A stretch of 64,000 nucleotides of DNA from Dehalococcoidia bacterium (GTDB lineage: Bacteria; Chloroflexota; Dehalococcoidia; Lucifugimonadales; GCA-002694895): positions 39,182 through 103,181 of the forward strand of contig JAPYRX010000006.1 of the NCBI GenBank assembly GCA_029936815.1, given 5' to 3'. The translations under genes and the position numbers were made by a program. Positions 21,569-57,421 of this stretch are shown piece by piece. Each line of letters begins with the position of its first letter. Position 1 is the stretch's first letter. The notes beneath the pieces are model-generated. The model was not told the origin of the DNA, ran no database searches, and worked only from the letters and a program-made list of their open reading frames with translations.

Positions 21569-22759
21569 TTAGAATTTGAGTTTTTTCTTGCTTGTTTTAT
21601 ATTTTCTGTCTTTCCATGTCGAAGAATAAAACATGTTGTCAGTAAAAGACCTAGCTGCTAACAAAAGAATTAATGATATTAAAATTGGAAACGAAAATGG
21701 AGTTATCATTGAATAATTAAACCTGATGGTCACTATTGTCCATGATAATATCAATAGAATTAAAAGAGTAATGCTAAGAATAATAAATTCCGTGTTTTGC
21801 TCCATTCCTATTAAATAAAGTATCATTGGAATTGTAGAAAATAAAACAAATGATAATAATATTAAAAATATAGTTAAAAAAATCGAAATACTATAACCAA
21901 CTGCAGGAAAAATGTTTTTCGAATATCCGGATATAAAATCTTTATTTGTTTTATAGGTTCTCGTAGATATTCGTTTGGCTCCGTCGTACAAAATCCATCT
22001 TAATTTATTTCTTTTGATATTCCTACCTAATTGAAAATCATCTACGGGATTGTCTTTTATGCTTTCAAACCCGCCAATACTGTTGAAAGAAGATTTTTTA
22101 AAAAGCATGAATTGACCAAAGGTAGCTGAAAGAAATGGGGCATTCAATGATAATGCTAATTTCATAGGAAGCCAACAAACTATAAACCATGAAATTATTT
22201 TTTTCATTGCGTTGTCTGCAATTAAAATTGTATCTCTATTGGGAACTAAAGATAGTAGGTCAATATTATCTTGTTTTAAAATACTTAAAGCATCAGACAA
22301 AGTGTGTTTATCTATTTGAGTATCTGCGTCAACAAATAAAATATATTTTCCTTTTGCTTGTTTGGAAAGTTGATGGCATGCCCAATTTTTCCCAAGCCAA
22401 CCTTCTGGTAATTTAGCTCCATCAATAAGCTTGATTTGAGAATTTTTCACAGAGAATTTTTCAACAATATTTTTTGTTTGATCCGTTGAATTATCATTTA
22501 AAATAATCAATTCGAAATTCTGATAATTTTGTTTTAATATTGATCTTATTGTTGATTCTAGAATATCTTCTTCATTTCTAGCCGGAATTAAAATAGATAT
22601 TAAATCATTTGACTTTAGCAATTTGCTTTTTGGCAATTTTTTTAACCAAAAGAAATTTGTAATTCCTGTAAGTACAGTAAATAACGCAATCCCGATAAGG
22701 CTTATATACCAATAAATAAAATTATTTTTTTCTAATATTACGTCGTATATAAATTCCAT
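21569..22759 (-). CDS. GT2 glycosyltransferase (CrtQ/hopene-type membrane glycosyltransferase)
   Basis: ISILIPARNEEDILESTIRSIL, FVDADTQID, C-terminal TM segments. Confidence 0.8.
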   Translation of the reverse strand: MEFIYDVILEKNNFIYWYISLIGIALFTVLTGITNFFWLKKLPKSKLLKSNDLISILIPARNEEDILESTIRSILKQNYQNFELIILNDNSTDQTKNIVEKFSVKNSQIKLIDGAKLPEGWLGKNWACHQLSKQAKGKYILFVDADTQIDKHTLSDALSILKQDNIDLLSLVPNRDTILIADNAMKKIISWFIVCWLPMKLALSLNAPFLSATFGQFMLFKKSSFNSIGGFESIKDNPVDDFQLGRNIKRNKLRWILYDGAKRISTRTYKTNKDFISGYSKNIFPAVGYSISIFLTIFLILLSFVLFSTIPMILYLIGMEQNTEFIILSITLLILLILSWTIVTIRFNYSMITPFSFPILISLILLLAARSFTDNMFYSSTWKDRKYKTSKKKLKF

Positions 22760-23361
22760 TATTTCCTTATTGATCTGAAATTTAATTTTTGATTATATTC
22801 TTTTCTATGTTTGAAAATTATAAAAAGTAAATTGAAAGTTATTCCATATAATAGTGATTCTGTTTCAAAATATGTAGTGTTTCTGAGAATAATATATATG
22901 TATAGAGTGGAAAATGCAAAAGTAACAGTTATTGCATCATTTTTTTGTAATGTCTTTAAAAATATTAAGCTTGCTCCAAGAATATAGAAGGCTTCTCCTT
23001 TTGTTATCGCTAGCCAAGTTCCAGCTGTCACAGCAAGTGATTTACCTCCTTTGAATTTTAGGAAAGGAGAAAACCCGTGACCTATTAATGAGCTTATTAT
23101 ACATAATAACATTGTTCTATCTGACATTTGAGAAATTGTGATCGTATACAATATTGGCAAAGCTGATTTTGAAATTTCTAAAAATGCAGAAATCATACCC
23201 CATAAAATACTCCCAGCCCTAAAAACATTCACTGTTCCCGGATTTTTATCACCATATGTTGTTATATCTGATTTTAATTGTATTTTTCCAACAATATAAG
23301 CCCACGGTACTGAGGAAGATATGTATACAATGAAAACTATGAGTATATTGATATTACCGAT
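22759..23361 (-). CDS. plsY: Glycerol-3-phosphate acyltransferase PlsY; start extended to a putative ATC codon
   Basis: The track ORF starts at an internal GTG (23232). The same frame upstream encodes IGNINILIVFIVYISSSVPWAYIVGKIQLKSDITTYGDKNPGT..., the conserved PlsY N-terminus, with no ATG/GTG/TTG. AAAAAGGG lies 7 nt before ATC (23361..23359). Body: LIGHGFSPFLKFKGGKSLAVTAGTWLA. Confidence 0.8.
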   Translation of the reverse strand: MGNINILIVFIVYISSSVPWAYIVGKIQLKSDITTYGDKNPGTVNVFRAGSILWGMISAFLEISKSALPILYTITISQMSDRTMLLCIISSLIGHGFSPFLKFKGGKSLAVTAGTWLAITKGEAFYILGASLIFLKTLQKNDAITVTFAFSTLYIYIILRNTTYFETESLLYGITFNLLFIIFKHRKEYNQKLNFRSIRK

Positions 23362-23526
23362 CTTGTATCCCTTTTTACTAGATAGCTATATAAGATTATA
23401 TCTATTCTATTTAATTTCACAATCAATCGATTATAAAAATATTGTTCTTTATGTGTTTCAAAGGTTTATATTTACTAAATTTGATTTTATAATCTATACA
23501 TAATTTAAAATATATGATTAATTACA

Positions 23527-41371: not shown

Positions 41372-44179
41372 TTATTTCATTTCCCCTAGGTTACTACCTA
41401 TTTGTAGATTTATATTTAAAGGAACTACTAATTGTACTACATTAGTCATAATAATGGTAAGTATATTTATTAACTCTTTTGTTTCAGATTTTTCAGATTC
41501 AAATATAAGTTCATCATGTACTTGTAATAACATTTTACTTTGTAATTTTTTGTTCTCTAATTCAGTGTGGATTTTAATCATAGATAATTTGATGATTTCT
41601 GCTGCAGACCCTTGTATGGGCATATTAATTGCCATTCTTTCAGCATGAGCTTGTATCCTTTTATCGTTTGCATAAATTTCTGGGATATGTCTTTTTCTAC
41701 CAAATATAGTTTCAACATACCCCTTATCTTTAACATCAGATTTTGTCTTATTAATATAATCTGAGATTTGAGGAAACCTTTTGAAATATATTTCTATAAA
41801 ATCTTTTCCTTGATTAACACTTAAATCAGTTTGTTTTGAAATTCCATAGGGACTAAGTCCATAAAGAACCCCAAAGTTTAGAATTTTAGCAATTCTTCTC
41901 ATATCTTCTGTAACATTTTCTATTCCACACCCATACATTGTTGCAGCTGTAAAATTATGAATATCCTCTCCATTTTTAAAAGCATCTATTAAATTTTGGT
42001 CTTTAGAAAAATGCGCTAGTACCCTAAGTTCGATTTGCGAATAATCAGCAGAAATAAATTGATGGTTATCAATTTGAACTTCAAAAGCTGCTCTTACTAA
42101 TTTCCCTGACAGTGTTTTTTTTGGGATAGTTTGTAAATTAGGTTCATTGCTTGACAATCTTCCTGTTGAAGTTCCTGACTGATTAAATTTTGTATGAATT
42201 CGATTCGTATTTTGATTAATTAGTTTAGGCAATGTATTTATGTAAGATGATAATAATTTTGATAATTCTCTGTACTCTTGGATTAATTCTAAGAATTGTA
42301 AATTTCTTGAGTCTTCTAATGCAGGAGTATAATTGGTTTTAGATTTGAATTTTTCAACTAATTTATCTTTTAAATCTGTAATTGATTGAGAATCTGTAGA
42401 ATAGCCTGATTTAGTTTTTTTGGTTTTGGGTAAATCGAATTTTTCAAATAATATTTTACTTAATTGTTGAGGAGAATTTAAATTTATTTCTTCATTAGTA
42501 AGTTCTTTCGCTCTAGATTCTAATATTATTATTTTTTTGGCAAATGTTTTGTTGAGATCATTTAAATACTTTATATTTATTGGCATACCAAAATTTTGCA
42601 TACAAATTAAAATTGGGATCAATTCCATTTCTATATTATTGAATAAGTCATCGAGGTTGTTAATCTTTAATTCTTTTTCAAATATAGTTTTTAGTTTGTA
42701 CGTGTAGATTGCATCATTAATTGCGTATTCTGCAATTTGATTTACAGTTTTATCAGCAATATTAGATATGGTTTTGCCCTTGCCTATAATTTCAGATAAT
42801 TGAGTTAAATTTACATTGAATAAGTCATTAGATATATTTTTCAAGCCTAGATTTCTATAGTTTAATAAATGTGCTGCAATTAATGTGTCAAATTTGAAAT
42901 TATTAATCGTAATATGTTCATTTAATTTTTTGTACTGACTTAGAAGTACTGAGTGATCAAAGTTGATATTATGACCGATTTTAAGGATTTTTTCGGATTC
43001 AAAAATTGGTTTTAATTTTTGTAGGGTTTCTAAAATAGGAAGGTTGTTATCATTAGTATGTTGCAAGGGTAAGTAAAAGCCCTCAGATTCATTATAGCTT
43101 AAAGAAATTCCAACTATGTTATTGTCGATCATACTTAAGGAAGTAGTCTCTGTATCAAATGCTATTTCTTTTTGATCGTATAATTTCACAATTAGTTTAT
43201 CTAATTTTTTTACATCATCTATTATATGAAGTTTAAATCTTTTTTGATTTTTTGATTTTCCTTCAATCGATTCTGTGTTTGATTCGTTAAACAATGATTT
43301 TTGATATCTACTACTTAAAGATTTAAATTCGAATTTTTCGAAAAGATTCAACAATCCGGATTTGTTTATATTAGAGATATTCAGTTTGTTAAAATCTATT
43401 TCTATATCAACGTCTAATTTTAGTTCTACAAGCGATTTGGCCCGTATCGAATTTTTCGCATACGTATCAAGGTTACTTCGTAATTTTTCTTGAGGGATTT
43501 TGTCTAGATTCGAAAAAACATTATCAATTGTTTTGTATTCATTAAGTAATTTGATTGCTGTTTTTTTTCCTACTCCTGGAATACCGGGGATATTGTCAGA
43601 ACTATCTCCAGTTAAAGACTTGTAATCAATGATTTGATCAGGTGACAATCCTAAATATGTGTTTTTTATTTCTTCTTCATTAAATGTTTTTAAATCACCA
43701 GTTTTTGATGTGGTGACAATATAAACATTTTCTTTTACAAGTTGATGCAGATCAGAATCTCCAGAAAATATGAAAACTTCATCGTCTTTATTCTGACTTA
43801 GTTTATTACTTAATGTACCTAAAATATCGTCAGCTTCAAAATTCTTCTCAGAAAATGATTCTATGTTAGTATTTGGTAATTCTTGTGTTATTAGATTTAA
43901 TTGTATTTTTAATTCGTTTGGAGCTTCAGATCTGTTTGCTTTGTATTCTGTATACATCTTGTTTCTAAAAGTTGGCCCTTTGGTATCAAATGCAACTCCT
44001 ATATGAGTAGGTTTTATTGAATTTATCAGTTTTAAAATTGTGTTAAAGAAACCATAAATAGCGCTTAATTCTATTCCTTCACTATTTAGCATGGGAGCTT
44101 TTATCCCGTACCATGATCTGAACATTAAGTAATGACCATCTATAAATAAAAATTTATTTTTATTTTCTTTATTATTAAT
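41372..44179 (-). CDS. polA: DNA polymerase I; start extended to a putative ATT codon
   Basis: The track ORF starts at an internal ATG (44125). The upstream in-frame sequence INNKENKNKFLFIDGHYLMFRSWYGIKAP restores the conserved PolA 5'-nuclease N-terminus. AAGGA lies 8 nt before ATT (44179..44177). Body: FSADYSQIELRVLAHFS, DMRRIAKILNFGVLYGLS, LLQVHDELIFE. Confidence 0.9.
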   Translation of the reverse strand: MNNKENKNKFLFIDGHYLMFRSWYGIKAPMLNSEGIELSAIYGFFNTILKLINSIKPTHIGVAFDTKGPTFRNKMYTEYKANRSEAPNELKIQLNLITQELPNTNIESFSEKNFEADDILGTLSNKLSQNKDDEVFIFSGDSDLHQLVKENVYIVTTSKTGDLKTFNEEEIKNTYLGLSPDQIIDYKSLTGDSSDNIPGIPGVGKKTAIKLLNEYKTIDNVFSNLDKIPQEKLRSNLDTYAKNSIRAKSLVELKLDVDIEIDFNKLNISNINKSGLLNLFEKFEFKSLSSRYQKSLFNESNTESIEGKSKNQKRFKLHIIDDVKKLDKLIVKLYDQKEIAFDTETTSLSMIDNNIVGISLSYNESEGFYLPLQHTNDNNLPILETLQKLKPIFESEKILKIGHNINFDHSVLLSQYKKLNEHITINNFKFDTLIAAHLLNYRNLGLKNISNDLFNVNLTQLSEIIGKGKTISNIADKTVNQIAEYAINDAIYTYKLKTIFEKELKINNLDDLFNNIEMELIPILICMQNFGMPINIKYLNDLNKTFAKKIIILESRAKELTNEEINLNSPQQLSKILFEKFDLPKTKKTKSGYSTDSQSITDLKDKLVEKFKSKTNYTPALEDSRNLQFLELIQEYRELSKLLSSYINTLPKLINQNTNRIHTKFNQSGTSTGRLSSNEPNLQTIPKKTLSGKLVRAAFEVQIDNHQFISADYSQIELRVLAHFSKDQNLIDAFKNGEDIHNFTAATMYGCGIENVTEDMRRIAKILNFGVLYGLSPYGISKQTDLSVNQGKDFIEIYFKRFPQISDYINKTKSDVKDKGYVETIFGRKRHIPEIYANDKRIQAHAERMAINMPIQGSAAEIIKLSMIKIHTELENKKLQSKMLLQVHDELIFESEKSETKELINILTIIMTNVVQLVVPLNINLQIGSNLGEMK

Positions 44180-44284
44180 TGTAATAATCCTTGAATTTCC
44201 ATGTTAAAATATATTGTAAGGCTATCTATCTAAATATACTATTAAATTTGTCAAAATAAACTTCAATCAACTTCTAGGAGAACT

Positions 44285-44533
44285 ATGACTTATATTATTT
44301 CAAAAACATGTGTCGGATTAAAAGACGGGTCGTGTGTTGATGTGTGTCCAGTTGATTGCATATATACAACGGATAATGATGATCAATATTTTATTAATCC
44401 TGAAGAGTGCATAGATTGTGCTGCTTGTGAACCGGTGTGTCCTGTTGAAGCTATATATGCAGAGGAAGATGTTCCAAAAGATCAAGAAAATTATATTGAT
44501 AAGAATTATAATTATTTTAATTTAGAAAAATAA
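44285..44533 (+). CDS. 7Fe/8Fe ferredoxin
   Basis: CVGLKDGSCVDVCPVDCIY and ECIDCAACEPVCPVEAIY cluster motifs. Confidence 0.93.
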   Translation: MTYIISKTCVGLKDGSCVDVCPVDCIYTTDNDDQYFINPEECIDCAACEPVCPVEAIYAEEDVPKDQENYIDKNYNYFNLEK

Positions 44534-56312: not shown

Positions 56313-56756
56313 TTATTCTTTATAAATTATTGTTGAACAAGCTTGATTGTTAAGTATATATGATGCGTTTAATCCAATTTCAGATGTTGTTTTTTCATTC
56401 TTGTTTGCACCTATTATTAAAAATTGAGGATTATTTATCTTGGCGATTTCTATTATTGCTGCACCTGCGTGTCTAGCCTGTATTATTTCTCCATAAATAT
56501 TTCCATGTGAACTTTTGAATTCTTGTTCTAATTGTTTGAGGATCTTTTCAGCTTTTTGAAAAGATTTGTGATCTTCAATGTCTAATTCTTTTTCTCTAGG
56601 AATTATGATTACATATAATAAGCATATTTCCGAATTGTTATCCGATAGCTTTATTGCACATCTAATTAAACTTGAATCAATTATAGATCCAGATATTCCA
56701 ACTATTATCTTGTTGTGAGTTGTAGATTTTCCTGACGAATTATTTGATCTAAAAAT
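56313..56756 (-). CDS. Universal stress protein (UspA)-domain protein; putative ATT start, absent from ORF track
   Basis: Open frame translates FRSNNSSGKSTTHNKIIVGISGSIIDSSLIRCAIKLSDNNSEICLLYVIIIPREKEL...ARHAGAAIIEIAKINNPQFLIIGANKNEKTTSEIGLNASYILNNQACSTIIYKE-stop. No ATG/GTG/TTG before the conserved KIIVGISGS strand; GGAG 10 nt before ATT. Confidence 0.8.
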   Translation of the reverse strand: MFRSNNSSGKSTTHNKIIVGISGSIIDSSLIRCAIKLSDNNSEICLLYVIIIPREKELDIEDHKSFQKAEKILKQLEQEFKSSHGNIYGEIIQARHAGAAIIEIAKINNPQFLIIGANKNEKTTSEIGLNASYILNNQACSTIIYKE

Positions 56757-56761
56757 ATTAT

Positions 56762-57421
56762 TTATTCTCCGAAATTTTTGTCAATCAGTTCATTCTTCCC
56801 AGCTAAAATTAAAACATCATTTTTTTTAATTATTTCGTTTATATCAGGATTGAGTATTATATTTTTTGACCTGACAATTGCTAGAGCAGTGAGATTGTAT
56901 TTGTCTCTTAATGTTCCAATATTTAATTCTTTTAACGATTTACCTTGTTGGTGTTTAGATACTTCGACTTTACTTATACCATAATTTGCTGTCATTCCCA
57001 TATAATCTATGACATTAGGATTAAACATGTTGTGTGCTAATTGTTCTCCCATTTCTTGTTCAGCTAGTAAGGTTTTGTCTACTTGAATTCTTTCAAGTGC
57101 ATTTCTTTGTAGTTCGTTTTGAGCTCGTGCGACAACATATGGGACACCAATAGATTTCAACAAAACTGAAGTCATAAGACTAGAGACAGTGTCAGAACCT
57201 ATAGCAACAATAGCAGCATCATATGAAGCTATCCCAAGTTCTCGCAAAGTTGATTCATTAGTAGCATCTCCTGAAACAGGATATGTTACCTTACCTAACA
57301 TATCTTGTACTCTATCTTCTTTTTTATCTATAGCAAGAACGTCGTGCCCTAAATTATATAATTCGGTAGCAACGCTTCTTCCAAATCTTCCTATTCCAAT
57401 TACAGCAACTTGTTTTTTCAT
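56762..57421 (-). CDS. KtrA/TrkA potassium uptake regulator (canonical RCK)
   Basis: VAVIGIGRFGRSVATELYNLGHDVLAIDKKEDRV, GDATNESTLRELGI, TrkA_C. Confidence 0.92.
   Translation of the reverse strand: MKKQVAVIGIGRFGRSVATELYNLGHDVLAIDKKEDRVQDMLGKVTYPVSGDATNESTLRELGIASYDAAIVAIGSDTVSSLMTSVLLKSIGVPYVVARAQNELQRNALERIQVDKTLLAEQEMGEQLAHNMFNPNVIDYMGMTANYGISKVEVSKHQQGKSLKELNIGTLRDKYNLTALAIVRSKNIILNPDINEIIKKNDVLILAGKNELIDKNFGE

Follow-up and report, generated by a model that had tools for sequence, protein, structure and literature searches.

The polA gene on the minus strand of the 64,000-nucleotide stretch of DNA analysed here (the window) is probably translated from an AUU codon at 44179-44177, a weak start that would be positioned by the Shine-Dalgarno (SD) motif upstream of it and that, judging from comparison of related genomes, is conserved within its genus of uncultured Chloroflexota bacteria, in the manner of similar starts in at least five other genes. 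The probability of this reading is put at about 85%. The coding sequence as proposed, from the AUU to the stop codon, occupies positions 41372..44179 (minus strand; 935 codons), and the DNA polymerase I that it encodes is a full-length match to NF004397 (9.2e-285; 947.6 bits against a cut-off of 720) and also matches TIGR00593 (6.5e-255). The Pfam domains 5_3_exonuc_N, 5_3_exonuc, DNA_pol_A_exo1 and DNA_pol_A were identified in the protein, indicating that the 5'-nuclease, 3'-5' exonuclease and polymerase are all present.

The start region of polA

The polA frame is closed upstream by an in-frame TAA (44204..44206, minus strand), which is followed by CAT GGA AAT TCA AGG ATT ATT ACA ATT, the last of these being the candidate start codon (44177..44179, minus strand). 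The frame continues as AAT AAT AAA GAA AAT AAA AAT AAA TTT TTA TTT ATA GAT GGT CAT TAC TTA ATG, the final codon of which (44123..44125, minus strand) is the unlikely start chosen by standard ORF calling (MFRSWYGIK...). No ATG, GTG or TTG is present in frame between the TAA at 44206-44204 and this internal Met at 44125, just as the initial annotation described it, with correct minus-strand coordinates; the AAGGA motif that it placed 8 nt before the ATT was confirmed at 44188..44192 (minus strand). The missing canonical start is not improbable when considered alone, since a run of 17 codons without ATG, GTG or TTG has a probability of ∼0.47 at the codon usage of this genome. The observation rises above chance because both the absence of a start and the AAGGA motif are conserved in two congeners with PolA proteins that are 67-68% identical to that of the window.

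Initiation at the internal ATG would require that PolA lacks the first strand and the conserved Asp of its 5'-nuclease domain, and that similarity upstream of the codon reflects regulatory DNA. Although no canonical codon precedes this ATG in the polA frame and every congener retains it, the SD motif lies far upstream of it, and the 5_3_exonuc_N, NF004397 and TIGR00593 models begin 8-10 residues before it, which bears out the suspicion that the ORF track loses the beginning of the nuclease domain. A start at 44125 would cost ∼10 residues of that domain, among them the IDGH motif, the Asp of which binds metal in nucleases of this family. Together with the substitution pattern and the relatives considered below, these observations render the internal start very improbable.

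The genome that contains the window (G000) was compared with four congeners (G001 to G004) and with many order-level relatives, all of the genomes being metagenome-assembled. A profile search of genome contigs returned three named congeners, and a search of genome contigs with the truncated PolA as a single protein returned no match; the public records of congeners, which derive from Chloroflexota metagenome-assembled genomes, are PAHZ01000020.1 (isolate NAT190), CAJWSY010000011.1 and CATLOZ010000009.1. The group may possibly belong to SAR202. Over its full length, the PolA of the window is 68% identical to that of G004 and 67% identical to that of G003, and the G001 protein is 56-58% identical. 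The polA genes of G003 and G004 are likewise devoid of ATG, GTG or TTG before the internal Met, and the absence of a start was confirmed in PAHZ01000020.1 and CAJWSY010000011.1. Their 5' ends read TAA AGG ATT GTT ATT ATA AGT ACA... (G004) and TAA AGG ATT CTA ATT ATA ATA AGC... (G003), such that AAGGA is followed after 8 nt by ATA in both species, and by ATT in the window. The polA gene of G001, conversely, opens with ATG AAA ATT AAT.... Its ATG precedes the Asp of the DG motif by 13 codons, the position occupied by the window's ATT, and AAGGA is absent from this species, while being present in all three that lack the ATG. A canonical codon was also found upstream of the DG motif in 26 of the 26 order-level relatives in which the start region was read. 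A canonical start in relatives, which the initial annotation had named as evidence against the AUU, was thus seen in the distant congener G001 but not in the near congeners G003 and G004, a mixed yet informative outcome, and the AUU at 44179, being matched by the G001 ATG at the same distance and by the ATA codons 8 nt after AAGGA in G003 and G004, emerged as the best supported start, as had been proposed.

Across the 13 codons that precede the internal Met, two changes separate the window from G004 and five separate it from G003, with four between G003 and G004. Every change upstream of the internal Met among these three species falls at a third codon position, indicating that the stretch is translated and speaking against the internal ATG, as does the translation of the same N-terminal part from canonical starts in G001 and in the order-level relatives.

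The initial annotation also raised the possibility of a start at the out-of-frame ATG at 44202, with -1 slippage at A_AAT_TTT into the polA frame, or of a one-base assembly error at that site. Both the ATG and the A/T-rich run do exist in the window, but the upstream ATG of G004 and its polA are related by another frame offset, and no such ATG exists in G003, so that the conserved other-frame start that would accompany a slippery site in a programmed frameshift was not found. Additionally, the ATG at 44202 lacks an SD motif and is only a few nucleotides away from the point at which transcription probably begins. A single indel cannot explain the polA sequence either, since three assemblies, each independent of the others, lack the canonical start, and the slippage and assembly-error explanations are both considered highly improbable.

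Initiation at another near-by non-canonical codon, namely ACA at 44182 or ATT at 44185 or 44188, is unlikely. In the nucleotide alignment the G001 sequence TTATTATGAAA stands opposite TTATTATAAGT in G004 and AATTATAATAA in G003, where ATG has become ATA by a G-to-A change, and the window codon that faces the ATG is ACA, with ATT directly after it; ATT codons are also found two and three codons upstream of 44179. However, no use of ACA as a start is documented, the ATT at 44188 overlaps the SD motif and the ATT at 44185 is separated from the motif by 2 nt, too short a distance, so that a near-cognate codon is combined with normal spacing only at 44179. Since G003 and G004 also have an ATT 5 nt after AAGGA, the identity of the exact start codon rests on spacing. 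With the AUU at 44179 as the start in the window, the alignment suggests that ATG was replaced by ATA in a common ancestor of the start-less species, and that the start may then have shifted by one codon to ATT in the lineage of the window.

The polA gene shares the intergenic region at 44204-44290 with a divergent ferredoxin gene (44285-44533, plus strand). Two blocks within this region, one resembling TTAATAGTATATTTA and the other TTACAATATATTTT, are identical in four congeners, and are likely to represent two -10 regions. The TTACAATATATTTT block, identical in all four of the congeners compared, contains TACAAT (44213..44218, minus strand), which likely serves as the -10 element of the putative polA promoter; because this block fixes its placement, the polA leader would be ∼26 nt in length. 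Folding of the leader revealed no structure better than those of shuffled sequences.

AUU and AUA codons at the likely start of other genes

Two screens were conducted on 92% of the G000 genome, ∼0.77 Mb of G003 and 0.26 Mb of G004. The first compared stop-to-stop frames between G000 and both G003 and G004 (986 ortholog pairs) and required an SD motif, and the second was a coding-potential scan of 1211 G000 genes that used neither the SD motif nor the start codon. The screens, which are independent, converged on the same few genes. Several genes of the genus were found to show the feature, and the view of the polA AUU as an isolated rarity was consequently abandoned. In plsY, an OadG-like gene, a gene of the S-Me-THD/DUF917 type, usp and infC, an SD motif is followed at start distance by AUU or AUA in three to five congeners each, and comparison of the sequences suggests that at least these five genes have starts of the same habit as that of polA.

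The candidate start of plsY is ATA in all five congeners, with no canonical start in the frame up to that codon, whereas the plsY genes of other families begin at ATG, GTG or TTG. In G001 and G002 the sequence is AGGAG TAA AAA ATA, and the open frame extends a single codon upstream of the ATA; only AAA and ATA could therefore serve, leaving ATA as the sole credible start. The OadG-like gene has AGGAG followed by ATT in four of four congeners, and the S-Me-THD/DUF917 gene has ATT in three congeners and ATA in one, behind AAGGT, GAGGAG, AAGGAG or AGAGG. For infC, ATA stands behind GGAGG or GGGAG and would be the start in four or more of the five congeners; four of them lack a canonical start, and the G000 gene has an in-frame ATG, which overlaps its SD motif.

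The usp gene, which encodes a Usp-family protein (Pfam Usp, 2.6e-6), is located in the same window as polA. Its open frame (56313-56780, minus strand) spans 155 codons without a single ATG, GTG or TTG, and the probability of 151 codons free of all three at this codon usage is ∼0.001. The candidate start is ATT at 56756-56754, with GGAG at 56770-56767 (minus strand), giving a proposed coding sequence of 56313..56756 (minus strand). The orthologues in G003 and G004 keep both GGAG and ATT, with a spacing of 10 and 9 nt, respectively, and the arrangement is thus retained in three congeners. The usp start adjoins the 3' end of the upstream gene.

Three further genes were noted in G000. A PlsY paralogue (22759..23361 within the frame 22759-23385, minus strand; Pfam G3P_acyltransf, 5.5e-30) runs for 51 codons from the beginning of its frame before any canonical start, in this one genome, and its G003 orthologue has an ATG; it is a candidate either for an AUC start (AAAAGGGATACAAG-ATC, the ATC at 23361-23359), for which the case is tentative and weak, or for a decaying gene. 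A short-chain dehydrogenase gene (G000:C9:94355-95128, minus strand) has no canonical start over 43 codons and an architecture like that of polA, with AAGGA, 8 nt and then ATT ACA AGT AAA AGA, in one genome. In a UppP/BacA homologue (G000:C24:72107-72967, minus strand) the first canonical codon, a TTG, lies inside the conserved N-terminus, and an AUA start (TTAAGG, 9 nt, ATA GAT ATA) is possible.

Other candidates were dropped from the survey. These comprised antisense shadow ORFs and ORFs overlapping rRNA; a NUDIX gene, an epoxide hydrolase fragment and an FAH fragment, all broken by frameshifts or contig ends; prfB, which has a known programmed frameshift; ∼100 ortholog pairs in which the similarity upstream of the ATG is merely that of the 5' UTR; and selD and a CxxU AhpD-like gene, in which an in-frame TGA denotes selenocysteine. 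The TGA is conserved in both of the latter genes (G000:C11:107359 and C8:14675 regions) and tRNA-Sec(TCA) is present in G000, indicating that the genus uses selenocysteine.

Translation machinery and proposed mechanism of initiation

The 3' end of the 16S rRNA carries the canonical anti-SD sequence CACCTCCTTT. The duplex between this tail and the AAGGA of polA was calculated at -5.0 kcal/mol, which is stronger than that of 65% of conserved canonical starts of this genome (polA stands at 65-67%). At all 21 of the non-canonical sites measured, the SD motif surpasses the median strength for 669 conserved canonical starts, being mostly in the top quarter—a comparison that is partly circular, since one of the two screens required an SD motif. 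The strong SD motifs are accordingly regarded as support rather than proof.

Recurrence of AUA and AUU as starts in the genus might also be expected if the lineage read AUA (and AUU) as Met, or had a special initiator tRNA for these codons. However, in alignments of the interior of genes, 75% of the columns with AUA pair it with AUU, AUC or AUA, and 1.4% pair it with AUG; since AUA exchanges with AUU and AUC and hardly with AUG, it is read as Ile within genes. The initiator tRNA, found in G003, has a CAU anticodon. Besides tRNA-Ile(GAU), the tRNAs identified include no Met-like species with anticodon UAU or AAU, although G000 is incomplete and might encode an additional tRNA. A change in decoding is, on these observations, exceedingly improbable.

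For the AUU start of polA, the ribosome would be placed by AAGGA, 8 nt upstream, and the codon would most likely be read by the ordinary CAU initiator tRNA through a third-position mismatch. Since IF3 is normally expected to disfavour starts of the AUU type, initiation on polA would be weak and the output of PolA low, and by analogy with known systems both may be sensitive to the level of IF3; we infer initiation at the AUU, its low strength and the discrimination by IF3 alike. The presence of AUA in polA of two sister species suggests that the trait is old and common to the genus, and the AUA start of infC fits an intact IF3 autocontrol, again by analogy. It is conceivable, though doubtful, that the AUU and AUA starts form a regulon in which the level of IF3, or relaxed start-codon proofreading, adjusts polA, plsY, oadG, the Usp gene, the DUF917 gene and infC together, thereby coupling replication repair and membrane synthesis to the condition of the translation machinery.

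Relation to known AUU and AUA starts

Should the reading be correct, one genus of small genomes has conserved six or more AUU/AUA genes, polA and plsY among them, and starts that are usually regarded as near-unique exceptions can be selected and kept. Since such genes start at AUU or AUA, their beginnings would be cut off or missed in standard annotation, and gene callers confined to ATG, GTG and TTG would truncate or lose them across metagenomic databases. The three-part comparison employed here—a canonical start missing in several species, third-position substitutions and an SD motif—can be applied to any genus, and the genus-wide set makes a link between the genes through IF3 testable. AUU and AUA starts are already known as a kind; a literature search of incomplete coverage found no report of one for polA, and among the papers searched polA and the genus-wide set appear to be new.

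The AUU start of Escherichia coli infC, which encodes IF3, is subject to IF3 autocontrol (Butler et al. 1987, as related in PMC1780047). The polA gene resembles it in having AUU as the sole usable start, and infC of the genus itself has AUA in no fewer than four of its five congeners; polA is nevertheless a different gene, for which control by IF3 would be by analogy. In E. coli pcnB, an AUU start limits expression (Binns and Masters 2002, as related in PMC1780047 and PMC13009471), and the AUU of polA would likewise be expected, by analogy, to hold an enzyme acting on nucleic acids at a low level, although the two genes are non-homologous. The inferred AUU starts of lepA in Borrelia burgdorferi and Bacillus licheniformis (PMC1780047) are similarly deduced from sequence for a housekeeping gene, but in single genomes, whereas the AUU or AUA of polA is backed across species. 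Finally, Staphylococcus aureus has AUA starts in infC, ccpN and citZ and an AUU start in cvfC1, all with strong SD motifs (PMC13009471, 2026), and AUU and AUA reporters yielded ∼10% of the AUG output in poor medium (PMC13009471). The genus described here is comparable in that more than one conserved start of the AUU/AUA type occurs within the same organism, but whereas those of S. aureus were mapped experimentally, the present set is from another phylum, comprises other genes, DNA polymerase and plsY among them, and was identified by comparison only.
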